DNA of 35,653 bases, taken from the NCBI GenBank assembly GCA_017423825.1, contig JAFPCP010000001.1, positions 1-35,653 on the forward strand, read 5' to 3'. The position numbers and the translations under genes are program-made. The notes under the pieces are model-generated. The model was given only the letters and a program-made list of their open reading frames with translations, had not been told where the DNA came from and ran no database searches. Source of the DNA: Clostridia bacterium. GTDB taxonomy: Bacteria; Bacillota; Clostridia; Oscillospirales; Acutalibacteraceae. Positions 3,102-35,653 of the stretch are shown here, one piece after another (the first letter of the stretch is position 1; every line of letters starts with the position of its first letter).

Positions 3102-3130
3102 TTGACAATTGTTTTTTAAGCGTGTATACT
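3102..3130 (+). promoter_or_regulatory. Sigma-A promoter of perR
   Basis: TTGACA (3102-3107) and TATACT (3125-3130) with a 17-bp spacer. Transcription should begin near 3137, inside the first PerR-like box, so a bound repressor would block initiation. Confidence 0.85.
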
Positions 3131-3134
3131 AACA

Positions 3135-3166
3135 TTGTAATCATTACAAACTGGAAATGATTACAA
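3135..3166 (+). promoter_or_regulatory. Two adjacent PerR/Fur-family operator boxes
   Basis: TTGTAATCATTACAA (3135-3149) is a perfect 15-bp palindrome with 7-1-7 symmetry, the form of PerR boxes. A second site at 3152-3166 (TGGAAATGATTACAA) keeps one perfect half and a degenerate other half. The centres (3142 and 3159) are 17 bp apart. Position over the start of transcription suggests autorepression of perR and probably of rubrerythrin. Confidence 0.8.
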
Positions 3167-3180
3167 GAAAGGAGGGCAGA

Positions 3181-3600
3181 ATGCAATATCAAGAAATAGC
3201 GAAAATGCTTTCTTCGCGGGGCATACGCCCAACGCAGCAACGCTTAGCGGTGTATGATTATTTATTACAGCACCGCACACATCCGTCAGCAGACACCATT
3301 TATGGCGCGCTGATAGAGCAAAACCCGACCTTTTCGCGTACCACGGTTTATAATTCTCTGCACACTTTGGTGCAAGCCGCTTTGGTGAAAGAATTGACCA
3401 TGGACACGGAGGAACGACATTACGACGCGGATATACGTCCTCACGGACATTTCCATTGTCGGCAATGCGGGGAGATAGCAGACATCCGTTTGGATGGGGA
3501 TTTGTTACAGGCGCTGCGTCCGGCCGGTTACACGGTGCAGGAGCAGGAAGTGTATTTTAGTGGGTTGTGTCCTGCCTGTGGAGAGGCAACCGGCAAATAA
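3181..3600 (+). CDS. perR: Peroxide-responsive repressor PerR (Fur family)
   Basis: A 139-residue Fur-family regulator with a winged-helix N-domain (about 1-80) and a C-terminal dimer domain. Two CxxC pairs (HCRQCG, GLCPACG) form the structural Zn site. The regulatory metal ligands are visible: His in HRTHPSAD, Asp/His in YDADIRPHGHFHC and Asp in EIADIRLD. This pattern, with Asp rather than Glu before the HGHFHC segment, favours PerR over Fur; in PerR these His residues are oxidised by peroxide when Fe2+ is bound. The ATG at 3181 has SD AAAGGAGGG. An in-frame ATG at 3157 lies inside the operator and has no SD. The next gene is a rubrerythrin, a typical PerR target. Confidence 0.88.
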   Translation: MQYQEIAKMLSSRGIRPTQQRLAVYDYLLQHRTHPSADTIYGALIEQNPTFSRTTVYNSLHTLVQAALVKELTMDTEERHYDADIRPHGHFHCRQCGEIADIRLDGDLLQALRPAGYTVQEQEVYFSGLCPACGEATGK

Positions 3601-4275: not shown

Positions 4276-5316
4276 TCAAGCCATCAGATCTTTCTGCTCG
4301 TACAATTCGCAGAAATCGCTGAAATAGGGATTTTCCCAAGTGTTGCCGTCGGTGGTTTCGTAAGACACAATAATGGCTTTGAAATGCGCGATGTTATTGT
4401 TTTGCATCAGGGGGTAGCCGACGTCCTTGCCGTAACTTTCGCCGGGGGCGAGGTCTATGTTGCTGTACGTCACCTGGTCAATATAATCAATGCCGTCGTG
4501 TGTGTGGCTGCGTATTTTCACAGGGCGTTTGTTTTTATCCCAAGCGGCGAAAGCCACGTGCACGTTGGAAATGGTTTGTTCCGTGTTGTTTTTCATCACG
4601 ATTTGCAACATATCGGGATAGAGGTTCTTTTTATCCTCGCTCTGCACGAGATATTGGCTTTCGATGATGCCGATGTTCTGCTCTTTTATGGTTTTGTCCA
4701 ATTCGGCTTGTTTCAAGGTCTCAATTTTGGCGGTGTCTTCAATCAGGTCGAGCCCGCTTGTATATTCTTCGGTGGAAATACGCATATCATAGTCGAATTT
4801 TTGACCGCTGTAGGCGGTTTCGAAGGCTGAATAGTATGGGTTTTCCCATTTTTGTCCTTCTTGTGTTTCAAAGGAAACGACGATAGCTTTAATGCACAGG
4901 ATGCTGCTGAGGGTTGCATCCTTTGACAGGGGCAACCCTTTTCCTCGTCCGTAGACGCGACCGCTCAGCAGGTGGATATCGGTTAACGTGTGCTTTTGGA
5001 CAAAAGCGCCTTCCGTTGTGTCGGTTGCGGATTTGATTTGCACAGGTTGTTTTTTCAAATTCCAAGCCACGTAAGCGATTTCCACGGATGTGACGGTTTG
5101 AGTGGTGTTATTTTTCACCACAGCCTCCAACAAATCCGGATAGGCTTCTTTGTCTTTATTATCTTGCACGAGATATTGTGTACTGAAAACTGTCATCGGC
5201 TGTTTGTTCAGCAGCTCTTCGAATTCGGTTATGGTAATCCCGTCTTCTTGTTTGTTGCAGCCGGCGAAGGCCAGCGCGGTTGCCAAGGCGAGAACAAAAG
5301 AAACGATTCGCTTCAT
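4276..5316 (-). CDS. Lipoprotein with two copies of a DUF5780-like domain
   Basis: A 346-residue exported lipoprotein. The N-terminus MKRIVSF, a hydrophobic stretch and the lipobox LAFAGC give a lipid-modified Cys near residue 19. The rest is an internal duplication. Copy 1 (about 45-170) has STQYLVQDN, KNNTTQTV, YVAWNLKKQPVQI and KWENPYYSAF; copy 2 (about 220-340) has ESQYLVQSE, KNNTEQTI, FAAWDKNKRPVKI and TWENPYFSDF. From memory the pattern matches DUF5780, of unknown function; a substrate or surface-binding role is only a guess. The start at 5316 has SD GAGGAGG six bases upstream. An in-frame TTG at 5331 overlaps that SD and is rejected. It is a single gene with its own promoter. Confidence 0.82.
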   Translation of the reverse strand: MKRIVSFVLALATALAFAGCNKQEDGITITEFEELLNKQPMTVFSTQYLVQDNKDKEAYPDLLEAVVKNNTTQTVTSVEIAYVAWNLKKQPVQIKSATDTTEGAFVQKHTLTDIHLLSGRVYGRGKGLPLSKDATLSSILCIKAIVVSFETQEGQKWENPYYSAFETAYSGQKFDYDMRISTEEYTSGLDLIEDTAKIETLKQAELDKTIKEQNIGIIESQYLVQSEDKKNLYPDMLQIVMKNNTEQTISNVHVAFAAWDKNKRPVKIRSHTHDGIDYIDQVTYSNIDLAPGESYGKDVGYPLMQNNNIAHFKAIIVSYETTDGNTWENPYFSDFCELYEQKDLMA

Positions 5317-22422: not shown

Positions 22423-22708
22423 AAATTCATCAAAGGCTGTGACGAAGACGGTCGGAGATGGCTGGTTTACAGAGAGCCGATGGTTGGTGCAAATCGGTAG
22501 CCGGTGTTTCCAATGGCCCATCCCTTCTGAGCCGGAAGGCTGAACTTCTCTTGGAGAATAATAGGTGCTTCCCGTGATTGCTGCGTAAAAGCATAGGAAT
22601 TGTTGGATTCCGAAGAGTGGTGTCCTGTTAAGGGATGCAAGTTGAGTGGTACCGCGGATGTGATTTTCACACTCGTCTCAATGTTTTTGTTGAGACGGGT
22701 GTTTTTTT
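22423..22708 (+). promoter_or_regulatory. T-box riboswitch leader 1 (proposed tRNA-Ile)
   Basis: A tRNA-sensing leader. Stem I runs from GGCT (22435) to AGCC (22533), with a K-turn-like GTGAC/TGA, the helix GAAG (22444-22447)/CTTC (22524-22527), the AGAGAG bulge (22471-22476) and the apical GGTTGGTGCAA. The T-box core TGGTACCGCGG is at 22647-22657, where TGGT should pair with an ACCA end (discriminator A). Counting one base up from CTTC, the specifier reads ATC (22520-22522), Ile. The following base is C, not the usual purine, and an alternative pairing could hide it, so the codon is tentative. Uncharged tRNA should prevent the terminator at 22670-22708 and allow expression of the downstream synthetase fusion. 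Confidence 0.9.
22670..22708 (+). terminator. Regulated terminator of T-box 1
   Basis: CACTCGTCTCAA (22670-22681) pairs with 22690-22701 (12 bp, one G-T), followed by seven T. It competes with the antiterminator formed by the T-box core. Confidence 0.9.
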
Positions 22709-22736
22709 ATTTTATTTTGACAAGGAGGATTGCGTT

Positions 22737-25004
22737 ATGAACCCGGTTGTAAATGATAAGCTCTTAGAGGTGGCCCGCCGTATTCGGGAGATGCGGGAGA
22801 TTTGCGGTTTCACCGAAGCGGAAATGGCGCAAAAGACAGAGGTAAGCGCAGAAGCGTATGGCCGTTATGAGCGTGGTGAGACGGATTTTCCGTTCACCTT
22901 TATTCACAAATGTGCACAGGCTTTTGGATTGGGTATCACGGACCTGTTGGAAGGCAAAAGTGCGCAGTTGTCCTCCTACACCATCACCCGAAAAGGGCAG
23001 GGGCAGGAGACGGCGAGAGAAGATGGCATCGTCATTCAGAATTTAGCCCCGTTGTTCCGCAATAAGATAGCGGAACCGCATTGGGTGCGCTATGAATACA
23101 AAGAGGAACAGCAAAACAAACCCATCCACTTGGCGAAACACTCCGGACAGGAGTTTGACTTCATCATGAGCGGTCGTCTGAAAGTGCAGATAGGCGACCA
23201 CGTGGAATATTTGAGCGAGGGCGACAGCATTTATTACAACTCTTCCACGCCGCACGGCATGATGGCCGTGGACGGTGAAGATTGTCTGTTTGTGGCGGTG
23301 GTACTTCCCGGCGAAAGCGAGAGCGAACAGTCGACGGACGACACCATCAAAGCGTTCCATGCGCCTGCCAAAAAATTGGTGAGTTCGGATTTTGTTTCCA
23401 CGGTAGAAGACGCACAAGGCGCCTTGCAGTCCATCAACTTCCGCAATGAAGATCGGTTTAATTTCGCGTTTGATATTGTGGATGCGATTGCCAAGCGCGA
23501 ACCGGACAAAGTGGCGATGGTGCACGTGGACAAGGATAAAAACGCGCGTCGTTTCACCTTTAACTATATGAAGCGGGCTTCCAATCAATGCGCGAATTAT
23601 TTCAAATCTTTGGGCATCAAAAAGGGCGACCGCGTGATGTTGGTACTCAAACGGCATTATCAGTTCTGGTTTGCCATTCTCGGCTTGCACAAACTGGGTG
23701 CGGTGGCGATTCCGGCTACGAACCAGTTGGTGGCGCACGATTTTGAATATCGTTTCCAGGCGGCCGAGGTGGATGCCATCCTTTGCACCGCCGACGGAGA
23801 CGTGGCGCATCAGGTGGATTTGGCGCAAGCTTCTTGCCCGACGCTGAAAACCAAACTGCTGGTGGGTGGTAAACGCGACGGATGGCGTGATTTTGATGAG
23901 GAGTTTTCCTTGTACAGCACGCATTATTACCGTACGGAGGAATCGCCGTGTGGGGATGATTTGATGCTGATGTTCTTCACCTCCGGTACGACGGGATATC
24001 CCAAAATCGCGGCGCATACCCACAAATACCCGCTGGGGCATTATGTCACCGCCAAATATTGGCACGGTGTGAGCGACGATGGTTTGCATTTCACCATTTC
24101 GGACACCGGCTGGGGCAAGGCGTTGTGGGGCAAACTGTACGGCCAATGGCTGTGCGAGGGCGCTGTGTTCACCTATGATTTTGACCGCTTTGCGGCTTCG
24201 GATATTCTGCCGATGTTTGCGCAGTACGGCATCACCACCTTCTGTGCACCGCCGACCATGCTGCGCATGATGGTGAAAGAGGATATCTCGCAATACGATT
24301 TATCCTCGGTGCGTCATATGACCACCGCCGGCGAGGCGCTGAACCCCGAGGTATACCGACAATTCAAGAAAGCCACCGGTTTGCGCATCATGGAAGGCTT
24401 TGGTCAGACGGAGCTCACCCTTGCGATTGCGAATTTGGCCGGCGGCACGCATAAACTCGGTTCTATGGGCAAACCGTCCCCCTTGTACGATATCGATATC
24501 GTCGACGCGGATGGTCAGTCGGTGCCGGACGGCGAGGTGGGCGAAATCGTGGTGCGCACAGCCGATAAGGTTCCGTGCGGCCTGTTCGCGGGGTATTATA
24601 ACAACCAAGAAGCCACCGACAAGGTGTGGCACGACGGGTATTACCACACCGGCGACACCGCCTGGCGGGACGAGGACGGCTTTTACTGGTATGTCGGGCG
24701 TGTGGACGACGTCATCAAATCGTCCGGCTACCGCATCGGGCCTTTCGAGATTGAAAGCGTCATCATGGAACTGCCGTACGTGCTGGAATGCGGCGTATCG
24801 GCCGCGCCGGATGAGGTGCGTGGGCAGGTGGTTAAAGCGAGCATCGTGCTGGTCAAGGGCACCGAGCCGACCGAGGAGCTGAAAAAGGAAATCCAGACCT
24901 ATGTGAAAGAGCATACCGCTCCGTATAAGTACCCCCGCATCGTGGTGTTCCGGGATGAACTGCCCAAGACCATCAGCGGCAAAATCCAGCGTAATCGCTT
25001 ATAA
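22737..25004 (+). CDS. HTH-cupin-acyl-CoA synthetase fusion 1
   Basis: A 755-residue three-part protein. Residues about 5-70 are an XRE helix-turn-helix (RIREMREICGFTEAEMAQKT, YERGETDFPF). About 125-190 is a cupin (HSGQEFDFIMSGRLKVQIGD, SSTPHGM). About 235-755 is an acyl-CoA synthetase of the medium-chain (MACS/ACSM) branch: FFTSGTTGYPKIAAH (A3), FTISDTGWGKALWGK, EGFGQTE (A5), GRVDDVIKSSGYR (A8) and SGKIQR with the catalytic Lys near 748. It should activate a short or branched carboxylate with ATP and CoA. MACS relatives in methanogens prefer 2-methylbutyrate. HTH-cupin pairs normally make stand-alone repressors, so this may be an enzyme that also regulates. The start has AAGGAGG upstream. 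Confidence 0.88.
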   Translation: MNPVVNDKLLEVARRIREMREICGFTEAEMAQKTEVSAEAYGRYERGETDFPFTFIHKCAQAFGLGITDLLEGKSAQLSSYTITRKGQGQETAREDGIVIQNLAPLFRNKIAEPHWVRYEYKEEQQNKPIHLAKHSGQEFDFIMSGRLKVQIGDHVEYLSEGDSIYYNSSTPHGMMAVDGEDCLFVAVVLPGESESEQSTDDTIKAFHAPAKKLVSSDFVSTVEDAQGALQSINFRNEDRFNFAFDIVDAIAKREPDKVAMVHVDKDKNARRFTFNYMKRASNQCANYFKSLGIKKGDRVMLVLKRHYQFWFAILGLHKLGAVAIPATNQLVAHDFEYRFQAAEVDAILCTADGDVAHQVDLAQASCPTLKTKLLVGGKRDGWRDFDEEFSLYSTHYYRTEESPCGDDLMLMFFTSGTTGYPKIAAHTHKYPLGHYVTAKYWHGVSDDGLHFTISDTGWGKALWGKLYGQWLCEGAVFTYDFDRFAASDILPMFAQYGITTFCAPPTMLRMMVKEDISQYDLSSVRHMTTAGEALNPEVYRQFKKATGLRIMEGFGQTELTLAIANLAGGTHKLGSMGKPSPLYDIDIVDADGQSVPDGEVGEIVVRTADKVPCGLFAGYYNNQEATDKVWHDGYYHTGDTAWRDEDGFYWYVGRVDDVIKSSGYRIGPFEIESVIMELPYVLECGVSAAPDEVRGQVVKASIVLVKGTEPTEELKKEIQTYVKEHTAPYKYPRIVVFRDELPKTISGKIQRNRL
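24624..25004 (+). repeat. 381-nt 3' block shared with synthetase fusion 2 (copy 1)
   Basis: The last 126 codons match copy 2 (27280-27660) with only two amino-acid differences (Ile/Val and Arg/Lys) and about 30 nucleotide differences, nearly all silent. Upstream parts of the two genes differ far more. This suggests gene conversion or very strong constraint on the C-terminal domain. Confidence 0.85.
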
Positions 25005-25069: not shown

Positions 25070-25348
25070 CAAGTGAATAAAAGGCGTTGACGAAGAGGGC
25101 CGCATCGGTCGCTTCCCCAGAGAGGCAACGGTTGCTGTGAGTTGTCGGAGTGTGGTGCGTGTTTGTAGCTTCTGAGCCGGGAGAAAGAAAGCCTGTTGGT
25201 TAGTAGACTCTCCCCGTGATTGCTGCGTAAAGGCATAGGGGTTGCTGGACCCTGAGGAGTGGCGGCTGTTCGGCCGCAATTTGAGTGGTACCGCGGGTGA
25301 CTTGTATTTGCACTCGTCTCAAAGTTCAACTTTGGGACGAGTTTTTTT
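25070..25348 (+). promoter_or_regulatory. T-box riboswitch leader 2 (proposed tRNA-Val)
   Basis: Paralogous to leader 1: the K-turn region GTTGAC/TGA, helix GAAG (25092-25095)/CTTC (25169-25172), AGAGAG (25119-25124), apical GGTTGCTGTGA between GCAAC and GTTGT, and core TGGTACCGCGG (25286-25296) are all present. The CCGTGATTGCTGCGTAAA element in the stem II/III region is identical in leader 1. The specifier at the standard offset is GTA (25165-25167), Val, followed by the expected purine G. TGGT fits discriminator A, as in tRNA-Val. This leader controls the second synthetase fusion and, by readthrough, the oxidoreductase and aminotransferase genes. Confidence 0.92.
25312..25348 (+). terminator. 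Regulated terminator of T-box 2
   Basis: ACTCGTCTCAAAGT (25312-25325) pairs with 25329-25342 (14 bp, one G-T) around a 3-base loop, followed by seven T. Confidence 0.9.
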
Positions 25349-25371
25349 GTCCCGGAAATGGAGCGAAGAGT

Positions 25372-27660
25372 ATGGAAAACATAACCGAGCTGGACTATAA
25401 AATTAAAGAGATGGCCGGGCGTATTCGTGAACTGCGTGAAATTCAGGGCTTGACGGTGGAAGACATGGCGCACAAGACCGCCGTCACTGTGGAGGAATAT
25501 ACGCGGTGCGAATCCGGCGTGTGCGACTTGAACTTTGCGTTTATTTATCGGTGCGCGTCGGCATTGGCTGTGAACGTGACCGATATCATTGAGGGATACA
25601 GCCCGAAACTGAAATCCTATACCGTCACACGCTTTGGCCAAGGGCAGCAGATTGCGCAGGCGCACGGCATGACGTATTACAACCTTGCCTACGCGTTCCA
25701 AAACCGCATCGCCGAGCCGCTGTACGTGCGTAGCGTGTATGACGAATCCGCCCAGCAACGGGAGATCGAATTGACCACCCACGCCGGGCAGGAATGCGAT
25801 TTGGTGGTGGAGGGCAACCTGCTGGTGCAGATTGGCGACCACCAAGAGGTGCTCGGCCCCGGCGACAGCATTTATTTTGACAGCGACACCCCGCACGGCA
25901 TGATTGCGGTCGGTGGGAAAGATTGTGTGTTTTACGCGATTGTGCTTAACCCCACCGGCGAGCCGATTCCGGAACTGACACCGGTCAAAACGGTGCAGGA
26001 GCGCCCGGCTTTAACGCGGGAAAATAAGGGACGCATCTACAACCAGTTTGTGGACGTTATCGAAAACGAGAACGGCACCCCGACCTCTATCACCTTCAAA
26101 AACACCGAGCGGTTCAATTTTGCATTTGACTTGGTGGATGCTTTGGCGAAGCGGGAGCCGGACAAACTGGCGATGTTACATATTTCCAAAGATAAAACCG
26201 AGCGTCGGTTCACCTTCAAGGATATGAAAAAGGCGTCTGCCCAGTGTGCCAACTATTTCAAATCCTTGGGAATCAAGAAAGGCGACCGGGTTTTGCTGGT
26301 GCTCAAACGGCACTATCAATTCTGGTTCGCCATGCTCGGCTTAAACAAACTTGGCGCGATTGCGATACCGGCGACCAATCAGTTGCAGGTGCATGATTTT
26401 GAATATCGCTTTGAAGCGGCGGGTGTCACGGCGGTCATTTGCACGGCGGATGACGGCGTGGCGCAACAAATCGAACAAGCCGAGAAAACCTATCCCGGCT
26501 TGCAGCATAAATTGATAGTAGGCGGTAGCCGAGAGGGTTGGCGGAATTTCGATGAGGAATACACGCTGTACAGCACCCATTACCGTCGTACGGAGGAATC
26601 GCCTTGCGGGGATGATTTAATGCTGATGTTCTTCACCTCCGGCACGTCGGGCTATCCGAAAATCGCCGCGCACAATCACAAATATCCCCTGGGGCATTTC
26701 CACACTGCGCGCTATTGGCACAACGTGGACCCGGATGGATTGCACTTCACCATTTCGGATACCGGCTGGGCAAAGGCCATGTGGGGCAAATTGTACGGCC
26801 AATGGCTATGCGAGGCGGCGACGTTTGTGTACGATTTCGACCGCTTTGACGCGGCGGACATTTTGCCGATGTTTGCGAAACACCACATCACGACCTTCTG
26901 CGCACCGCCGACTATGTTGCGCATGATGATAAAACAGGATATTTCGCAATACGATTTCTCGTCGGTGCAACATATGACCACCGCCGGTGAGGCGCTCAAC
27001 CCTGAGGTGTATCGTCAATTTGAAAAGGCCACCGGCTTGCAGATTATCGAGGGCTTCGGACAATCCGAAAGCACCATGATTATCGGCAACATGGTGGGCG
27101 CCGGCCACAAAATCGGCTCTATGGGCAAACCGGTGCCGGTGTACGACGTAGATTTGGTGGATGCGGACGGCCATTCGGTGCCGGACGGCGAGGTTGGCGA
27201 GATTGTGGTAAATGTCAAAGACGGCGCCCCTTGCGGCTTGTTTACCGGGTATTATAACGCACCGGAAAAGACGGCCGAAGTGTGGCACGATGGGTATTAC
27301 CACACCGGTGACACCGCCTGGCGGGATGAAGACGGCTTTTACTGGTATGTCGGGCGTGTGGACGACGTCATTAAATCGTCCGGCTACCGCATCGGGCCTT
27401 TCGAGATTGAAAGCGTCATCATGGAGCTTCCGTACGTGCTGGAATGCGGCGTGTCGGCCGCACCGGATGAGGTGCGCGGGCAGGTGGTCAAGGCGAGCAT
27501 CGTGCTGGTCAAGGGCACCGAGCCGACCGAGGAGCTGAAAAAGGAAATCCAGACATACGTGAAAGAGCACACCGCTCCGTACAAATATCCCCGCATTGTG
27601 GTGTTTCGGGATGAATTGCCCAAGACCGTTAGCGGCAAGATTCAGCGCAACAAACTGTAA
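25372..27660 (+). CDS. HTH-cupin-acyl-CoA synthetase fusion 2
   Basis: A 762-residue paralogue of fusion 1 with the same order: XRE helix-turn-helix (about 12-77, RIRELREIQGLTVEDMAHKT), cupin (about 140-200, HAGQECDLVVEGNLLVQIGD, SDTPHGM) and MACS-type acyl-CoA synthetase (about 240-762). Core motifs are FFTSGTSGYPKIAAH, GFGQSE, GRVDDVIKSSGYR and SGKIQRNKL. Changes around A5 (GFGQSESTMI against GFGQTELTLA) lie near the acyl pocket and could change substrate; isobutyrate would fit a Val-controlled operon, but that is inference. The start at 25372 follows GGAG by eight bases. The stop overlaps the ATG at 27660 (TAATG), and the operon continues to ilvE without a terminator. Confidence 0.88.
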   Translation: MENITELDYKIKEMAGRIRELREIQGLTVEDMAHKTAVTVEEYTRCESGVCDLNFAFIYRCASALAVNVTDIIEGYSPKLKSYTVTRFGQGQQIAQAHGMTYYNLAYAFQNRIAEPLYVRSVYDESAQQREIELTTHAGQECDLVVEGNLLVQIGDHQEVLGPGDSIYFDSDTPHGMIAVGGKDCVFYAIVLNPTGEPIPELTPVKTVQERPALTRENKGRIYNQFVDVIENENGTPTSITFKNTERFNFAFDLVDALAKREPDKLAMLHISKDKTERRFTFKDMKKASAQCANYFKSLGIKKGDRVLLVLKRHYQFWFAMLGLNKLGAIAIPATNQLQVHDFEYRFEAAGVTAVICTADDGVAQQIEQAEKTYPGLQHKLIVGGSREGWRNFDEEYTLYSTHYRRTEESPCGDDLMLMFFTSGTSGYPKIAAHNHKYPLGHFHTARYWHNVDPDGLHFTISDTGWAKAMWGKLYGQWLCEAATFVYDFDRFDAADILPMFAKHHITTFCAPPTMLRMMIKQDISQYDFSSVQHMTTAGEALNPEVYRQFEKATGLQIIEGFGQSESTMIIGNMVGAGHKIGSMGKPVPVYDVDLVDADGHSVPDGEVGEIVVNVKDGAPCGLFTGYYNAPEKTAEVWHDGYYHTGDTAWRDEDGFYWYVGRVDDVIKSSGYRIGPFEIESVIMELPYVLECGVSAAPDEVRGQVVKASIVLVKGTEPTEELKKEIQTYVKEHTAPYKYPRIVVFRDELPKTVSGKIQRNKL
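27280..27660 (+). repeat. 381-nt 3' block shared with synthetase fusion 1 (copy 2)
   Basis: Partner of 24624-25004: same length, same frame, about 92% identical DNA by my count and 124 of 126 identical residues. It covers motif A8 and the small C-terminal lid domain through the stop codon. Confidence 0.85.
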
Positions 27661-27674
27661 TGGGGGTGCGCTGT

Positions 27675-28352
27675 ATGGATACATATAAACGGCTGACGTT
27701 GGTTTGCGGACATTATGGCACAGGTAAGACCAACGTGGCGGTGAATCTGGCCTTGGCGTTGCGTGAGCAGGGGCTTCCCATGGCGATGGCCGACCTAGAC
27801 ATCGTCAACCCGTATTTTCGCACCAAAGACAGCGCCGCACGGCTGGAACAAGCGGGCATCCGCCTGATTTGTTCATCGTTCGCCAACAGCAACGTGGACA
27901 TTCCATCCCTGCCGCCGGACCTGTATGCTATCACCGACGACCGAAACACGCATATGGTGTTGGACATCGGTGGAGATGACAGCGGCGCCACGGTTTTGGG
28001 GCGTTTGGCGCCGGCCATTCGGGAAGAGGATGACTATGCGATGTTGCTGGTGGTCAACGGATACCGTCCGCTGACGCGGGATGCGGCGTCCACGATGGAA
28101 GTGTTGCGGGACATTGAAGCGGCCTGTGGGTTGCGGTTCACCGGCATTGTCAACAATTCCAATTTGGGCGTGGAAACCACCGCCGACGATGTGTTGCATA
28201 GCGTCAGCTATGCCGAGCAGGTGGCGCAGATGTCCGGTTTGCCGGTGGTGTTGACCACCGTCGACGAGCGGCTTTATCCCGCGTTAGAGGGTAAAATTCC
28301 GCAGTTGTTTCCCTTGCGTTTGCAGGACAATCGGATTTTTCTTAACGAATAA
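27675..28352 (+). CDS. P-loop ATPase of the MinD/ParA-like class, unknown role
   Basis: A 225-residue soluble P-loop protein. Walker A is CGHYGTGKTN near residue 12, the SIMIBI-type second motif is MADLDIVNPYFRTKD, and VLDIGGDDSGA resembles Walker B. The extra N-terminal Lys of the deviant Walker A (KGGxGKT) is missing, so it is not a typical MinD or Mrp. No membrane or Fe-S motif is visible. It sits between the synthetase fusion and the ferredoxin subunit, and probably serves the oxidoreductase, perhaps in maturation or energetic coupling; that is inference. The start at 27675 has GGGGGTG upstream. ATG 27660 overlaps the previous stop and has no SD, but is possible. Confidence 0.75.
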   Translation: MDTYKRLTLVCGHYGTGKTNVAVNLALALREQGLPMAMADLDIVNPYFRTKDSAARLEQAGIRLICSSFANSNVDIPSLPPDLYAITDDRNTHMVLDIGGDDSGATVLGRLAPAIREEDDYAMLLVVNGYRPLTRDAASTMEVLRDIEAACGLRFTGIVNNSNLGVETTADDVLHSVSYAEQVAQMSGLPVVLTTVDERLYPALEGKIPQLFPLRLQDNRIFLNE

Positions 28353-28600: not shown

Positions 28601-28609
28601 GTGAACAGC

Positions 28610-29676
28610 ATGGCAGATAAAGTGCTCATGAAAGGGAACGAAGCGATTGCCGAGGCGGCCATTTGCGCCGGATGCCGGCATTACTTCGGGTATCCCATTA
28701 CACCGCAGACAGAGATAGCGGCTTATATGGCCAAAAAGATGCCGAAAATCGGCGGTACTTTTTTGCAGGCGGAAAGTGAAGTGGCGGCCATTAACATGGT
28801 GTACGGCGTTTCGGCGACCGGTCACCGCGTGATGACCTCCTCGTCCAGCCCCGGCGTTTCGCTGAAAGCCGAAGGCTTGTCTTATATGGCGGGCGCGGAT
28901 TTACCGGCGCTGATTGTCAACGTGCAACGCGGCGGCCCCGGCTTGGGCGGCATTCAGCCCAGCCAATCGGATTATTTCCAGGCCACGCGTGGCGGCGGCC
29001 ATGGCGATTATCGCATGATTGTGCTGGCGCCCGCCTCGGTGCAGGAGATGGCCTCTTTGACGGTGAAAGGCTTTGATTTGGCTGACCAATATCGTATGAC
29101 GACGATGATTTTGGCAGACGGCACCATGGGCCAGATGATGGAACCGGTGGCGTTGGATTTTGCTGAAAACAAGGCGCCGGCGAAAGACTGGGCCACCACA
29201 GGCACGGATATGAAACGCCCCCACAACGTGGTGAATTCGTTGTATCTTGACCCGGCCGCATTGGAGCGTGTGAACTTCGAGCGGTATGAGCGGTACGCTT
29301 ATATTGAAGAGCACGAAACCATGTATGAGGAATATATGATGGATGACGCCGAGATTTGTGTGGCGGCTTTTGGTATTGCCGCGCGCGTGTCCAAAAACGC
29401 GGTCAACGAGGCCCGCAAACAGGGCATCAAGGTCGGTTTGTTGCGGCCGATCACCTTGTGGCCGTTCCCGAAGGCGCCGTTCCGTGCGGCGGCTGACCGT
29501 GTACATTCCTTCATTTCGGTGGAATTGTCTATGGGCCAGATGATTGAAGATATTCGCCTGGCGACGGAGTGCAAGAAACCGGTGACGTTGTGCAACCGTG
29601 CCGGCGGCATCATTCCTTCGCCGGAGCAGGTGTTAGAGGCCATTCAGCAGGCGGCGAAAAACGGAGGTGCGAAATA

Positions 29677-29677
<1 letters not shown>
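28610..29677 (+). CDS. vorB: 2-oxoacid:ferredoxin oxidoreductase alpha subunit (VorB type)
   Basis: A 355-residue alpha subunit of the PorA/KorA family. The pyrimidine-binding domain begins KGNEAIAEAAICAGCRHYFGYPITPQ, with AESEVAAINMVYGVSATG holding the Glu that activates TPP, then TSSSSPGVSLKAEGLSYMAG. Domain II follows (about 240-350). Sequences like this are usually named VorB (3-methyl-2-oxobutanoate) or KorA (2-oxoglutarate). The branched-chain context favours VOR, but the substrate cannot be proven by reading. The reaction interconverts acyl-CoA + CO2 + reduced ferredoxin and the 2-oxoacid. The start at 28610 uses AAAGGTGA; a GTG nine bases upstream is in frame. Confidence 0.9.
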
Positions 29678-30428
<751 letters not shown>

Positions 30429-30432
<4 letters not shown>

Positions 30433-30965
30433 GTCAGAAATCGTTTTTGTTTTCCGGTTTCGGCGGCCAGGGCATCCTGTTTGCCGGTAAGTTTTTAGCC
30501 TATAAAGGGCTGACCGACGGCAAACAGGTGAGTTGGTTGCCTTCTTATGGCCCGGAGATGCGTGGCGGCACAGCTAGCTGCGGCGTGATTATCAGCGACG
30601 AGCCGGTGGGCTCGCCGATTGTCACCAATCCGGACATTTTGGTTGCGATGAATTTGCCCTCTTTGGACAAATACGAGAGCGCCGTCAACCCCGGTGGTAT
30701 CATTTTTGCCGACTCCACGCTGATTGAGCGTAAGGTCGAGCGGGATGACGTGACGGTGTATTATATTCCCGCCACGAAACTCGCCGGAGAAAACGGCATT
30801 CCTACCCTGGCGAACATGGTTATTATGGGCAAACTGCTCGCGGTGTTGGGCGATAACAGTGAAGAGGGGATTGCCGCTGCGTTGGGTAAGGTAATATCTG
30901 CCCGCAAGGCCGCTATGTATGATGCGAACTACACAGCCATGAAATTGGGTGCGGATTACGAATAA
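30429..30965 (+). CDS. 2-oxoacid:ferredoxin oxidoreductase gamma subunit
   Basis: A 178-residue gamma subunit, probably binding CoA. FSGFGGQGILFAGKFLAYKG is the family signature, followed by SWLPSYGPEMRGGTASCGV. The ATG overlaps the beta stop (ATGA). With the delta, alpha and beta subunits this completes the four-part enzyme. ilvE starts 12 bases later. Confidence 0.92.
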
Positions 30966-30977
30966 GGGGATGAGAGT

Positions 30978-32048
30978 ATGCAGATAACGATTACCAAGAC
31001 AACAGCGCCGAAAGAAAAACCGGCGAGCGACATTTTGGGATTCGGTCAGTATTTCACCGACCACATGTTTATGATGGATTATTCGGCGGAGCAGGGATGG
31101 CACAATGCGCGCATCGTGCCGTTCGGCCCGCTGGCGATTCACCCGGCCTGCACGGCGTTGCACTACGGCTCGGAGATTTTTGAAGGGCTCAAAGCCTATC
31201 GCCGTGCGGACGGCGTGGTGCAGATGTTCCGTCCGATGGAGAATATCCGTCGCATGAACAATTCCGCCGAGCGTCTGTGCCTGCCCACCATTCCGGAGGA
31301 AGAGGCGTTGGAGGTTTTGACTGCGTTTGTGCAGTTTGAGCAGGATTGGACGCCGTCGGCGCCCGGCACGTCTTTGTATTTGCGCCCCTTTATGTTTGGT
31401 AGCGATGAGACGTTGGGCGTGCACGCGGTGCACAACGCCCAGTTCATCATTATCGCGTCGCCGGTGGGCAGTTATTACAAAGAGGGCATTAACCCGGTGC
31501 GTATCATGATAGAGGACGAGGATGTCCGCGCGGTACGTGGCGGCACGGGCGAGGCGAAATGCGGCGGCAACTATGCGGCCAGCAACCGCGCCGGTCAGCG
31601 CGCGGAAGAGAAGGGTTATTCTCAGGTGTTGTGGCTGGATGGCGTTGAGCGCAAGTATATCGAGGAAGTCGGCGCTATGAACGTGATGTTCAAAATCGCC
31701 GGCCGCATCGTGACACCGAAATTGTCCGGCTCTATTCTGCCGGGTATCACGCGCAAATCCTGCATTGAGGTGCTTCGTCAGCAAGGATACACGGTAGAAG
31801 AACGCTTGCTGAGCATCGATGAATTGAGCCAGGCTATGGCGGACGGCACGCTGGAAGAGGCGTGGGGCTGTGGCACGGCGGCGGTCATTTCCCCGATTGG
31901 CGAGTTGTGCTATAAGGGTGTGAAATACCCGGTCAACAATGGAGAAATCGGTGCGGTGACCCAGTATTTGTACGATACCTTAACCGGCATTCAATGGGGG
32001 CGTGTCGAGGACACGTTTGGTTGGACGCATCCGCTGGAAAGCAAATAA
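30978..32048 (+). CDS. ilvE: Branched-chain amino acid aminotransferase
   Basis: A 356-residue class IV PLP aminotransferase of the longer BCAT form. ALHYGSEIFEGLKAYRR is the family start motif, GGTGEAKCGGNYAAS holds the PLP Lys, and EEVGAMNVMF and SGSILPGITRKS are the conserved loops around the cofactor. It exchanges amino groups between glutamate and the 2-oxoacids of Val, Leu and Ile. As the last gene in the VOR operon it turns the oxidoreductase product into the amino acid. No ilvB, ilvC or ilvD is in the window. There is no terminator after it; the promoter of T-box 3 begins 18 bases downstream. Confidence 0.94.
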   Translation: MQITITKTTAPKEKPASDILGFGQYFTDHMFMMDYSAEQGWHNARIVPFGPLAIHPACTALHYGSEIFEGLKAYRRADGVVQMFRPMENIRRMNNSAERLCLPTIPEEEALEVLTAFVQFEQDWTPSAPGTSLYLRPFMFGSDETLGVHAVHNAQFIIIASPVGSYYKEGINPVRIMIEDEDVRAVRGGTGEAKCGGNYAASNRAGQRAEEKGYSQVLWLDGVERKYIEEVGAMNVMFKIAGRIVTPKLSGSILPGITRKSCIEVLRQQGYTVEERLLSIDELSQAMADGTLEEAWGCGTAAVISPIGELCYKGVKYPVNNGEIGAVTQYLYDTLTGIQWGRVEDTFGWTHPLESK

Positions 32049-32100: not shown

Positions 32101-32397
32101 AAAATCCCGTATAAATAAATGCGTTGATGGAGATTTTTCTTTTTCACAACCCGTTTCAGAGAGCCGTCGTTGCTGGGAGGACGGTACGGAAGGATTAGAA
32201 ATTCTGGCTCCGGAGCAGAGTGGCTGAACCCTCTTATGGTTTTGAGGCAGTAGGCGGCTACGGCTTGCCCCGTTACCATGGCAAGGAGCTTGCTGGAGCT
32301 TCGTTGAGTGACCGTCTTTTGGGCGGTAATAAGGGTGGTACCACGGAAATTGTTTCGTCCCTAAAATCGGCATTGCCGATTTTAGGGATTTTTTTTA
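32101..32397 (+). promoter_or_regulatory. T-box riboswitch leader 3 (proposed tRNA-Leu)
   Basis: More diverged than leaders 1 and 2, but with the same skeleton: TGC-GTTGAT-GGAG (about 32120-32132) pairs with CTCC-GGA-GCA (32208-32217) as K-turn flanks. AGAGAG is at 32158-32163, an apical loop lies between GCCGTC and GACGGT, and the core GGTGGTACCACGG at 32334-32346. At the standard offset from CTCC the specifier reads CTG (32204-32206), Leu, followed by the expected G. An alternative frame two bases earlier gives ATT (Ile). TGGT fits discriminator A. It controls a LeuA-like gene, which agrees with Leu. Confidence 0.9.
32358..32397 (+). terminator. Regulated terminator of T-box 3
   Basis: TCCCTAAAATCGGC (32358-32371) pairs with GCCGATTTTAGGGA (32375-32388), followed by eight or more T. 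Confidence 0.92.
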
Positions 32398-32439
32398 TTT
32401 TCGGTTGCCAACACAGCCGGCAGAAAGGGAGTAACCAGT

Positions 32440-33819
32440 ATGAATCAAATCAAAATCGCAGACATCACATTGTGTCGGGAGGATGGCGCCTTCACCTTCA
32501 AGGAGAAGATTGAAATTGCGCGTCAGTTGGAGCGCCTCAATGTAGATGTCATTGAATTGCCGGCGATTACCCAGGTGCGGCAAGACACTTTGCTGGTACG
32601 CACGCTCGGCTCCTTTGTAAAGCAATCCACCTTGTCAGTTGCTGCCGGCTTGACAGAAGAGAGCGTAGACTTGGCAGCGGCCGCGTTGGAAGGCACAGCG
32701 CATCCGCGCATCCGCATTGAACTGCCGTTGTCTGCTGTGGGCATGGAATATGCGTGTCATAAGAAACCGGCGGCTATGCTTCCTTGGATTACGAAGGTGG
32801 TGGAGCGTGCCTGCGCGACGGGATATCCGGTGGAATTTTGCGCGTTGGATGCCACCCGTGCGGAAGCCGGCTTTTTGAAACAGGCCATAGAAGCGGCGGT
32901 GCAGGCCGGTGCAATGTGCGTGTCGATATGTGACAACGCGGGTCAACAGTTGCCGGATGATTTTGCGGACTTTGCGGCGGTGGTGCAGGAATCGGTTGAC
33001 GTGCCGCTGGGCGTGGGTTGCGACAATCAAAACGGTTTGGCTTGTGCGCAGGCTATTCTTGCGGTGCGGCGGGGTGTTTCTTTTGTGAAGACCTCGGTGG
33101 GCGGCACCGGTGTGCCGTTGGAGATTTTTGCCTCTATGGTGAAGAATTGCGGTGACAATTACGGAATGGCTTGTGGCATCCGTTATACGGAACTGCATCG
33201 CATTGCCAAACAGATTGCTTGGATTGCGGATAAAGGGGAAAATCAAAAGACGGCCATATCCGTTGTGGGTAGCGAGCAGGAGAGCATTCATTTGGACGAT
33301 AAGGACGACCAAGCGGCGGTGACAATGGCGGCGGCGCGTCTGGGATACGATTTATCCGATGAGGACCAGGCCAAGGTGTATGAGGAGTTTCAGCGGGTAG
33401 CCGCCAAAAAGCAGGTGGGTGCCAAAGAACTGGAAGCGATTGTCGCCAGCACGGCGTTGCAGGTTCCGGCCACCTATAAACTGGTGAGTTATGTTATCAA
33501 TAACGGTAACATCATTTCTGCCAGCGCGCAGATTTCGGTGCAAAAAGGAGATAAACTGTTACAGGGCGTCTGCATTGGTGACGGCCCGATTGATGCTGCG
33601 TTTTTGGCGATTGACCAGATTATCGGGCATCACTATGAATTGGATGATTTCCAAATTCAGTCTGTGACGGAGGGCAAAGAGGCGATGGGCTCGGCGCTTG
33701 TGAAATTGCGTGCCGGCGGGAAATTGTATGCCGGAAACGGCATTTCCACCGACATCATCGGCGCAAGCATTCGGGCGTATCTCAACGCGGTGAACAAGAT
33801 TGTCTATGAGGAGGGTTGA
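32440..33819 (+). CDS. 2-isopropylmalate synthase-like protein lacking catalytic residues
   Basis: A 459-residue protein with a DRE-TIM barrel (about 1-270) and a C-terminal LeuA allosteric domain (about 345-459, LVSYVINNGNIISASAQISV, GDGPIDAAFLAIDQI, GNGISTDIIGASIRAYLNAV). The barrel is degenerate. The TLRDGEQ start reads TLCREDG. The metal HxH (as in VHCHNDLG) reads VGCDNQNG, losing both His. The GERAGN loop reads GTGVPLE. It is therefore unlikely to condense acetyl-CoA with a 2-oxoacid, and may be a Leu-binding regulatory or structural protein. Codon use looks like its neighbours and the frame is intact, so it is not a decaying pseudogene. SD AAAGGGAG. The next gene begins 2 bases after its stop. 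Confidence 0.82.
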   Translation: MNQIKIADITLCREDGAFTFKEKIEIARQLERLNVDVIELPAITQVRQDTLLVRTLGSFVKQSTLSVAAGLTEESVDLAAAALEGTAHPRIRIELPLSAVGMEYACHKKPAAMLPWITKVVERACATGYPVEFCALDATRAEAGFLKQAIEAAVQAGAMCVSICDNAGQQLPDDFADFAAVVQESVDVPLGVGCDNQNGLACAQAILAVRRGVSFVKTSVGGTGVPLEIFASMVKNCGDNYGMACGIRYTELHRIAKQIAWIADKGENQKTAISVVGSEQESIHLDDKDDQAAVTMAAARLGYDLSDEDQAKVYEEFQRVAAKKQVGAKELEAIVASTALQVPATYKLVSYVINNGNIISASAQISVQKGDKLLQGVCIGDGPIDAAFLAIDQIIGHHYELDDFQIQSVTEGKEAMGSALVKLRAGGKLYAGNGISTDIIGASIRAYLNAVNKIVYEEG

Positions 33820-33821
33820 GC

Positions 33822-35653
33822 ATGAAACTGTCGTTTTCCACCAAAGGATGGCATAACAACACCTTTGAAGAGTTTTGTCAAACGGCGGAAGATTTGCATT
33901 TTGCGGGTATAGAACTGCACAATATTTATAACCGTTTGTTTACGGATAAAAACGGCGCTTTTCACGATTATAAAGCAGCCTCCACGCGGCGCCGTTTGTA
34001 TGAGAAAGGGTTATCCATTCCTTGTATGGATACGGTGTGTGACGTGGCGGATGCCGCTACGCATGCGCAATCTGTGGAAGAAATCACCCGCTGCTTAGAG
34101 ATTGCGGACAATCTGCGCATTCCGTGCGTGCGGCTGAAAGCCGGCGCGGCGGAAGATACGCAGGCGGCGATGGAGCGGGTGGCCGCGTTGGTGGCAGAGG
34201 TGCTACCCATGGCGCAGGATAAGAACGTCACCTTGTTGCTGGAAACCTCCGGTCTGTTTTGCAACACGGCGGATTTGCGCGCTTTGCTGGACCGCTTTGC
34301 CAGCGACCATTTGGCGGCCTTGTGGCAGCTGTCGGCGGCCTATTTCGGGGGCGGGGAAAGCCCGGAGAAAATCATTGAAAATCTCGGCGCGTATATACGC
34401 CACGTGCATATTCACGATGCAATGCCCACCCGAAATGGTGTGGAATACTGCCTGATGGGCGAGGGGAAATTGCCCATTCGGGATATGATGTTGGCTCTGC
34501 GTTCGGTGAATTATGATGGGTTTATTTCGCTTGTTTGGGACCCGGCGTGGTGTGAGGAACTGGACGATATGGAGATCATTTTCTCCCAATTCGTGCAGTA
34601 TATGAAACAGTTCAGCAACACCTCCCGCAATGAGAAAAGTTTGTACTACAATCGTGCTCGCACGGGCAAATTTGTGTGGGAGAAGGATCGGCTGATTGAC
34701 GCAACTTTCTCTGAGGTGTTGGACCGCATGGTGGAGGAATTCCCTGACCAGTATGCGTTTAAGTATACAACGCTGGACTACACCCGCACGTATAGCGAAT
34801 TCCGCGACGACGTGGACACGTTTGCGCAGTCGCTCATTGCCTTGGGCGTTAAGGCCGGCACGCATGTGGCGGTGTGGGCGTCCAATGTGCCGCAGTGGTA
34901 TATTGCGTTTTGGGCGACGGTGAAACTCGGGGCGGTGCTGGTGACGGTGAATACAGCGTATAAGATTCACGAGGTGGAATACCTGTTGCGTCAGTCGGAT
35001 ACGCATACGCTCATCATGACACGTGGCGCAAAAGATTGCGACTATGGAGAGATTGTGGCGCAATTGTGTCCGGAACTGGCAAACAACAAACCGGGCACGC
35101 CTTTGCATGCGCGGCGCCTGCCGTTCTTGCGCAACGTCATTACGGTCGGATTCCGTCAAAAAGGATGTTTGGAATGGGGCGAAGCGCTGGATCGGGCGGC
35201 TCAGGTGCCGTTGGAAGAGGTGCATCGCATGGCTGCCGCCGTCAACAAAGACGACGTGTGTAATATGCAGTATACCTCCGGCACCACCGGCTTCCCGAAA
35301 GGGGTTATGCTGACGCACTATAACGTGGTCAACAACGGCAAATACATCGGCGACCACATGGATTTATCCACGGCGGACCGCATGATGATTCAGGTGCCGA
35401 TGTTCCATTGTTTTGGCATGGTGCTGTCGATGACGGCGTCTATGACACACGGCACCACTATGTACCCGTTGCCGTATTTCTCCGCCAAACCGGCGCTTGC
35501 GTGTGTGCACAACGAGCATATCACGGCATTCAACGGTGTGCCGACGATGTTTATTGCCATGATGCAACATGAGGATTTTGCAAAGACGGATTTCTCCTAC
35601 ATGCGCATCGGTATTATGGCGGGTGCGAACTGCCCGGCGGATTTGATGAAAAA
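33822..35653 (+). CDS. TIM barrel-acyl-CoA synthetase fusion (partial, runs off the window)
   Basis: An open frame from ATG 33822 (AGGAGG upstream) to the window end, 610 residues seen. Residues about 1-275 resemble a xylose isomerase-like/AP-endonuclease-2 barrel (KLSFSTKGWHNN, VTLLLETSG, YIRHVHIHDA). From about 290 an acyl-CoA synthetase starts, of the FadD/ACSF2-like branch rather than MACS: ASNVPQWYIAFWATVKLGAV, A3 motif YTSGTTGFPKGVMLTHYN near 485, and FHCFGMVLSMTASM. The barrel keeps Glu (LLLETSG) and the HxHxD group, but strand 6 reads WQLSAAY where Asp/His is usual and strand 8 reads SLVWDP where Glu is usual, so metal catalysis is doubtful. The A8 and A10 motifs lie outside the window. 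Confidence 0.85.
   Translation, partial: MKLSFSTKGWHNNTFEEFCQTAEDLHFAGIELHNIYNRLFTDKNGAFHDYKAASTRRRLYEKGLSIPCMDTVCDVADAATHAQSVEEITRCLEIADNLRIPCVRLKAGAAEDTQAAMERVAALVAEVLPMAQDKNVTLLLETSGLFCNTADLRALLDRFASDHLAALWQLSAAYFGGGESPEKIIENLGAYIRHVHIHDAMPTRNGVEYCLMGEGKLPIRDMMLALRSVNYDGFISLVWDPAWCEELDDMEIIFSQFVQYMKQFSNTSRNEKSLYYNRARTGKFVWEKDRLIDATFSEVLDRMVEEFPDQYAFKYTTLDYTRTYSEFRDDVDTFAQSLIALGVKAGTHVAVWASNVPQWYIAFWATVKLGAVLVTVNTAYKIHEVEYLLRQSDTHTLIMTRGAKDCDYGEIVAQLCPELANNKPGTPLHARRLPFLRNVITVGFRQKGCLEWGEALDRAAQVPLEEVHRMAAAVNKDDVCNMQYTSGTTGFPKGVMLTHYNVVNNGKYIGDHMDLSTADRMMIQVPMFHCFGMVLSMTASMTHGTTMYPLPYFSAKPALACVHNEHITAFNGVPTMFIAMMQHEDFAKTDFSYMRIGIMAGANCPADLMK

Follow-up and report, generated by a model that had tools for sequence, protein, structure and literature searches.

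2-Isopropylmalate synthase (LeuA) joins a catalytic HMGL-like barrel (PF00682) to a LeuA_dimer regulatory domain (PF08502). In the Mtb and yeast enzymes, leucine binding and feedback involve residues G531, G533, L535, A536, V551, Y554, A558, A565 and A567 (Mtb numbering; PMC2704214), and changes of R80 destroy the activity of Mtb LeuA (PMC10464499). In the rumen, carboxylation of isovalerate is an established alternative origin of leucine (Allison 1962, 1966, as cited in PMC7356843); its steps are acid activation, reductive carboxylation and amination. For the first step S. aureus offers a precedent with its branched short-chain acyl-CoA synthetase, which activates short branched acids; the abstract of PMC10026030 has this enzyme serving membrane fatty acids and mentions neither a TIM-barrel fusion nor a LeuA-like partner. 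Relay of end-product feedback by a regulatory protein to a separate catalytic subunit is known from HisZ of the short-form ATP phosphoribosyltransferase (PMC9734150). In the literature searched, isovalerate carboxylation was not linked to any synthetase under leucine regulation or to any regulator resembling LeuA, and a search of partial coverage returned no LeuA pseudoenzyme and nothing relevant on a T-box-controlled synthetase of this kind.

The window analysed here, a 35,653-nucleotide stretch of a Clostridia bacterium contig, encodes a LeuA paralogue that we call pLeuA. The gene and its main features are as follows.

32440–33819, forward strand: pLeuA, predicted non-catalytic LeuA paralogue (ATG at 32440, TGA at 33819, 459 amino acids, open frame)
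32473–32484, forward strand: C12-R13-E14-D15, where LeuA has RDGE (Mtb R80/D81), from the alignment
33013–33036, forward strand: VGCDNQNG, residues 192–199, in place of VHCHNDLG; both metal His gone, from the alignment
33088–33090, forward strand: K217, a clade-specific Lys in barrel strand 8 (Glu/Asp in LeuA, Lys in 103/106 pLeuA), from the alignment
33415–33801, forward strand: LeuA_dimer regulatory domain (PF08502), residues 326–454, with leucine-contact positions G380, G382, I384, D385, L401, F404, S408, A415 and G417

The frame runs from ATG to TGA without interruption, as a preliminary description of this DNA had stated. In a Pfam search, the barrel matches PF00682 with 105.8 bits (E 3e-30) and the regulatory part matches PF08502 with 102.6 bits (E 2e-29). 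The AlphaFold model has a pLDDT of 82.5, with a linker (residues 267–280) and the leucine loop (residues 402–413) below 50, and structure comparison of this model places its barrel close to that of isopropylmalate synthase 3ewb (Z 36.0, rmsd 1.7, 261 residues aligned). pLeuA thus shares with LeuA the domain order, the barrel fold and a LeuA_dimer domain with the Mtb leucine-contact positions, but it differs in the absence of the metal site, RDG.Q, GxGERxG and subdomain I, in an inverted pattern of conservation, and in that the rest of the LeuA pathway is missing from most genomes that carry it.

We aligned 106 pLeuA sequences with 20 canonical LeuA proteins of the same order and with E. coli LeuA. 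R13, D14, H97, H106, E141, T171, H202, H204, N238 and the GER motif (E. coli numbering) are present in all 21 canonical enzymes. From pLeuA, LeuA's Arg, metal Asp, both metal His, E141, N238, GxGERxG and subdomain I are gone. The metal Asp (D14) is retained in 4/106 sequences and is mostly Arg or Lys in the others; H202 is retained in none, H204 in two, and E141 in one, with mostly Val or Leu in its place. A motif scan for HxH(N/D)D, the N-terminal RDG and GER found each in 0/106. The core of lid subdomain I (the Mtb H379/Y410 region) and the GxGERxG(N) loop are gapped in all 106 sequences, and the strand-2 Glu (E39) is kept in 104. In the window protein, the metal positions are R13, G193 and D195, and the start region reads LCREDGAF at the RDG.Q position. 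The preliminary description had reported, for this one protein, loss of the RDG.Q start, both metal His and the GERAGN loop; this is true of the window protein, and none of the 106 clade members has any of the three motifs intact; the case is stronger than stated there, the deletion of lid subdomain I having been overlooked. Replacement metal ligands, which would have changed that picture, do not appear as a family-wide set when judged by residue conservation. A substitute site built from Cys residues is not supported as a feature of the whole family: C12, C106, C134 and C237 are retained chiefly by members of the near clade, C164 is the only near-universal Cys among the candidates (98/106), and C194 is already the usual LeuA residue. 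It is nearly certain that pLeuA is not an isopropylmalate synthase.

A scan of genome contigs yielded 545 relatives, to which whole-genome searches added more, and 80 of the 545 loci were retrieved. pLeuA forms one clade with 100/100 tree support on a long stem. The family is common in the class: of 291 genomes sampled, approximately 35 match pLeuA strongly, one of which (G350, 282 bits) probably represents a canonical LeuA. In LeuA, mean identity is 0.59 in the barrel and 0.44 in the regulatory domain, the barrel being at least as high in 206/210 pairs and the regulatory domain higher in 4/210, whereas in pLeuA the values are 0.49 and 0.71, and the regulatory domain is higher in 5356/5356 pairs. 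Constraint is therefore inverted relative to real LeuA. Both halves are under purifying selection, with median dN/dS values over 69 pLeuA pairs of 0.088 (barrel) and 0.041 (regulatory domain). High-scoring matches in three genomes, G053, G066 and G111, resembled intermediates but were rejected as such: L121 and L122 have all motifs intact and are canonical LeuA, and the fragment from G111 (L123) covers, in alignment with E. coli LeuA, the lid region that is missing from pLeuA.

The allosteric domain had been described as well kept, and both the PF08502 score and the conservation of the mapped leucine-contact positions are consistent with this. The Mtb and yeast feedback residues correspond, by our mapping, to the nine positions listed above, which are nearly invariant in pLeuA. 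Since a regulatory-domain profile search against PDB sequences gave just a weak isopropylmalate synthase match (3f6g, E 0.03), the mapping went through E. coli LeuA, with the Mtb-to-E. coli step made by matching the GxGP and Y...A motifs by eye. G380, G382, I384, D385, L401, A415 and G417 are the usual LeuA residues at those columns, and the two changes in the pocket, F404 (Tyr in LeuA) and S408 (Ala or Ser in LeuA), are conservative. The residue equivalent to Y554 is Phe in every pLeuA, which we count against a role as leucine sensor. Overall, the alignment indicates that the contact positions are at least as strict in pLeuA as in LeuA, and we infer that pLeuA binds leucine. Subdomain I (Y410), which relays the leucine signal in Mtb LeuA, is deleted, so the signal in pLeuA must go another way.

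A T-box opens when its amino acid runs short, and a complete leader of this kind precedes pLeuA.

32115–32365, forward strand: T-box leader RNA (Leu), RF00230, 109.9 bits against a gathering threshold of 93
32204–32206, forward strand: CTG (Leu) as specifier codon in Stem I, 3′ side; CTC/CTG in the leaders of relatives
32360–32400, forward strand: T-box terminator hairpin and T run, read from the sequence; fold z-score −2.86 for 32115–32395

The earlier reading of this leader as a leucine T-box agrees with the RF00230 match and with the specifier. Among the leaders parsed by script, the specifier is CTC in 70 and CTG in 5, and most of the others are CTC by eye; the CUC/CUG swap is synonymous and means Leu both ways. 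No T-box match is present in 5/80 loci (L006, L032, L040, L065 and L075). In the first four of these, pLeuA lies about 120 bases after IlvE, and its transcription probably continues from the Vor–IlvE operon. A distant operon (L185) has no detectable T-box and carries at 4667–4738 a possible Leu-rich leader peptide, MKALSNNFALLLSAIGLLTLSSC, of 23 codons with seven Leu, followed by a hairpin and T run; in this one sequence, the arrangement looks like a classical leucine attenuator. At another locus (L187), the reverse strand carries a further T-box (3105–3344) close to the pLeuA operon and opposite in orientation.

The gene directly downstream of pLeuA encodes its presumed partner.

33822–35653, forward strand: AP_endonuc_2 TIM barrel (approximately residues 1–270) joined to an AMP-binding acyl-CoA synthetase, truncated where the contig ends; relatives have 832–842 amino acids, and complete partners are present at L002 and L003

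The preliminary description had pointed to a fused synthetase 2 bases downstream as a candidate partner, and the coordinates (pLeuA stop at 33819, ATG at 33822) bear this out. The fusion lies 3′ of pLeuA in all 79 readable loci, with a median gap of 2 nt, 76 cases within 20 nt and 13 with a 4-base overlap, and it also adjoins pLeuA in the pLeuA genomes of our order sample. We aligned the metal ligands of its TIM barrel to E143, D178, Q204 and E240 of E. coli Hyi. In stand-alone fusions, the ligands E, D, H and E are each present in 19/19 sequences; among 100 pLeuA-linked copies, the first Glu is kept in 94, Asp in 23, His in 77 and the last Glu in 24. The ligase half of the linked copies is intact (YTSGTTGFPKG, YGQTE, GRLKD and NAAGKILK). 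Judging by these residues, both barrels of the operon appear to be without a metal site, the partner's in most cases, and the ligase is retained. The same fusion occurs alone in many genomes without pLeuA. None of nine stand-alone loci retrieved (L171–L179) has a T-box or pLeuA in front; these fusions have approximately 850 amino acids and an intact TIM metal site. The synthetase falls below every NCBIfam cut-off, and its substrate is therefore not predicted.

Upstream of the T-box, the following genes are present.

27660–28352, forward strand: P-loop (ParA/CbiA-like) NTPase, from a domain search; conserved position beside the Vor genes in many relatives
28601–29677, forward strand: VorB, 3-methyl-2-oxobutanoate:ferredoxin oxidoreductase subunit (NF005507, 545 bits against a cut-off of 399)
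29674–30432, forward strand: 2-oxoacid:ferredoxin oxidoreductase TPP subunit (PF02775); best NCBIfam matches are oxoacid:ferredoxin oxidoreductase beta subunits, below cut-off
30429–30965, forward strand: 2-oxoacid:ferredoxin oxidoreductase gamma subunit (POR, PF01558)
30978–32048, forward strand: IlvE, branched-chain aminotransferase (NF009897, 477.7 bits against a cut-off of 307)

The gene content fits the steps of isovalerate carboxylation, with the AMP-forming synthetase for acid activation, Vor for reductive carboxylation and IlvE for amination. Vor or IlvE is found upstream in 32/50 loci having at least 5.5 kb of upstream sequence, a proportion that we count against a leucine route; in the remaining loci the route would need to be encoded elsewhere. 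Further upstream in the window, 22635–25004 and 25285–27660 (both forward strand) encode fusions of HTH, cupin and AMP-binding acyl-CoA synthetase domains (789 and 791 amino acids). It is unusual for a DNA-binding domain to be fused to this enzyme, and these two bring the acyl-CoA synthetases of the locus to three.

In an order sample of 147 genomes that are at least 90% complete, 26 carry pLeuA, about 45 others carry canonical LeuA and none carries both (P ∼ 2e-5 with kinship ignored, although the genomes are not independent of each other). On a chosen panel of the 26 pLeuA genomes and 18 LeuA genomes, LeuB scores above cut-off in 1/26 versus 14/18, and KARI is present in 3/26 versus 13/18. 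One pLeuA genome, G075, keeps LeuB, a LeuC-like gene and KARI, an exception that we count against the leucine route. The window genome has one LeuA_dimer protein and one Iso_dh, the latter below the LeuB cut-off; KARI, LeuC and a LeuB above cut-off were not found in this genome, which at 94% completeness does not make the absence absolute for it alone. Its sole aconitase-type protein is a 649-residue frame approximately 1 kb after a citrate-synthase-like gene. The warning that annotation as LeuA would mislead is justified: the nearest NCBIfam models of the pLeuA family are LeuA, yet the isopropylmalate and acetohydroxyacid routes are mostly lost in its carriers, and bacteria without these routes would appear able to start leucine synthesis.

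We propose, with a probability of roughly 0.6, that pLeuA descends from a 2-isopropylmalate synthase, has lost catalysis and now serves as a regulatory subunit that binds leucine, and that its target is most likely the downstream synthetase in a route from isovalerate to leucine. The proposal builds on what can be read from sequence: catalytic loss, conserved leucine-contact positions, a leucine T-box, coupling to the synthetase, absence of canonical LeuA, near absence of LeuB, and adjoining Vor and IlvE. A protein that has lost catalysis and kept its leucine domain, is controlled by leucine together with a synthetase and occurs where the usual pathway is missing is probably the leucine sensor of an alternative leucine route. 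The synthetase would activate isovalerate (3-methylbutyrate) to isovaleryl-CoA, VorABC would carboxylate this reductively to 4-methyl-2-oxopentanoate, and IlvE would aminate the oxoacid to leucine. Under leucine shortage, the T-box would be opened by uncharged tRNA-Leu, and pLeuA and the synthetase would be made; such opening on shortage speaks for a biosynthetic rather than a degradative direction. With ample leucine, the amino acid would bind to the LeuA_dimer domain, and pLeuA would turn the synthetase down. The complex, the direction of control and isovalerate as substrate are inferred; feedback on the synthetase, as the committed step, seems the most economical role for pLeuA. The contact would probably be made by the dead pLeuA barrel against the degenerate TIM barrel of the partner. 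The fuller picture of a two-protein regulated acyl-CoA synthetase, with pLeuA as leucine sensor of a dedicated isovalerate-to-leucine route and the two degenerate TIM barrels as regulatory interface, is more tentative, and we put it at slightly under even odds.

HisZ derives from a HisRS-like enzyme. Like an enzyme-derived regulatory subunit of this kind, pLeuA has lost its ancestral catalytic residues. It is coupled to the synthetase in all 79 readable loci, and this neighbour would be the regulated enzyme. HisZ and pLeuA are unrelated, and the comparison concerns how they might work. If our proposal is true, the isovalerate carboxylation pathway, which biochemical work on rumen bacteria has described since the 1960s, would gain its genes and a feedback control, and the need of many rumen and gut Clostridia for branched acids could be traced to genes open to testing. 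It would also describe a leucine-gated acyl-CoA synthetase and be a clear case of a feedback domain outliving its own enzyme.

The main rival, which we regard as unlikely, is that the barrel has been repurposed to bind another metabolite or to catalyse a new reaction of the pathway (e.g., with isovaleryl-CoA or a 2-oxoacid as substrate), leucine then being an ordinary feedback effector. The barrel's low dN/dS (0.088), a sign of strong purifying selection, fits this, as do the retained strand-end residues D8, T10, E39, S98, D137, R140 and D165. Furthermore, K217 (103/106), P96 (105/106), C164 (98/106) and H107 (97/106) are conserved in pLeuA and differ from the LeuA residues, which is more than a mere scaffold would need and argues against a protein that only senses. 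The conserved pocket of D8, E39, D137, R140 and D165 together with K217 could accommodate a second ligand or a new activity. However, a family-wide replacement metal set is lacking, the regulatory domain exceeds the barrel in conservation in every pair, and the known route needs no additional enzyme from acyl-CoA to oxoacid.

It is less probable still that pLeuA regulates another target (such as VorABC, IlvE or a transporter), or that it is a chaperone or dimerisation partner of the TIM–ligase without leucine sensing. Vor, IlvE and the P-loop NTPase are conserved neighbours, and the partner's TIM half is degenerate as well, but the TIM–ligase alone is invariably coupled to pLeuA, with stop and start often overlapping or nearly so, and a chaperone would not need leucine-contact positions at least as strict as those of LeuA.

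It is very improbable that pLeuA still catalyses a condensation, as an isopropylmalate, citramalate or homocitrate synthase whose site is unusual. The fold match to 3ewb and the retained E39 are compatible with it, but the residues and segments lost include the Arg whose replacement inactivates Mtb LeuA, and the known mechanism is impossible without them. Every relevant NCBIfam cut-off is missed: LeuA (TIGR00973, 233.9 versus 598.7; NF002086, 260 versus 532), CimA (TIGR00977, 53.6 versus 450) and NifV/LysS-type homocitrate synthase (TIGR02660, 90.9 versus 462.9), the last two being contradicted also by the missing metal site and CimA by the position of pLeuA outside its clade in the tree. With no LeuB or LeuC in the window genome to take the product, an isopropylmalate synthase would feed no pathway, so the earlier doubt about this function was well placed. 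The other two PF00682 proteins of this genome keep RD-type and HxH motifs: one has RDGQQ, HGH and GERTGN, and the second has RDAHQ and HSH. Finally, a decaying pseudogene, which the loss of catalytic residues might suggest, is rejected by open frames and low dN/dS over a large clade; these values and the 545 relatives speak against chance or decay.

At a further locus (L082, 1261–2709), a PF00682 protein with RDGQQ, HGH and GERTGN intact lies near aconitase and Iso_dh genes; it is probably a citrate synthase of the Re type that serves glutamate synthesis.
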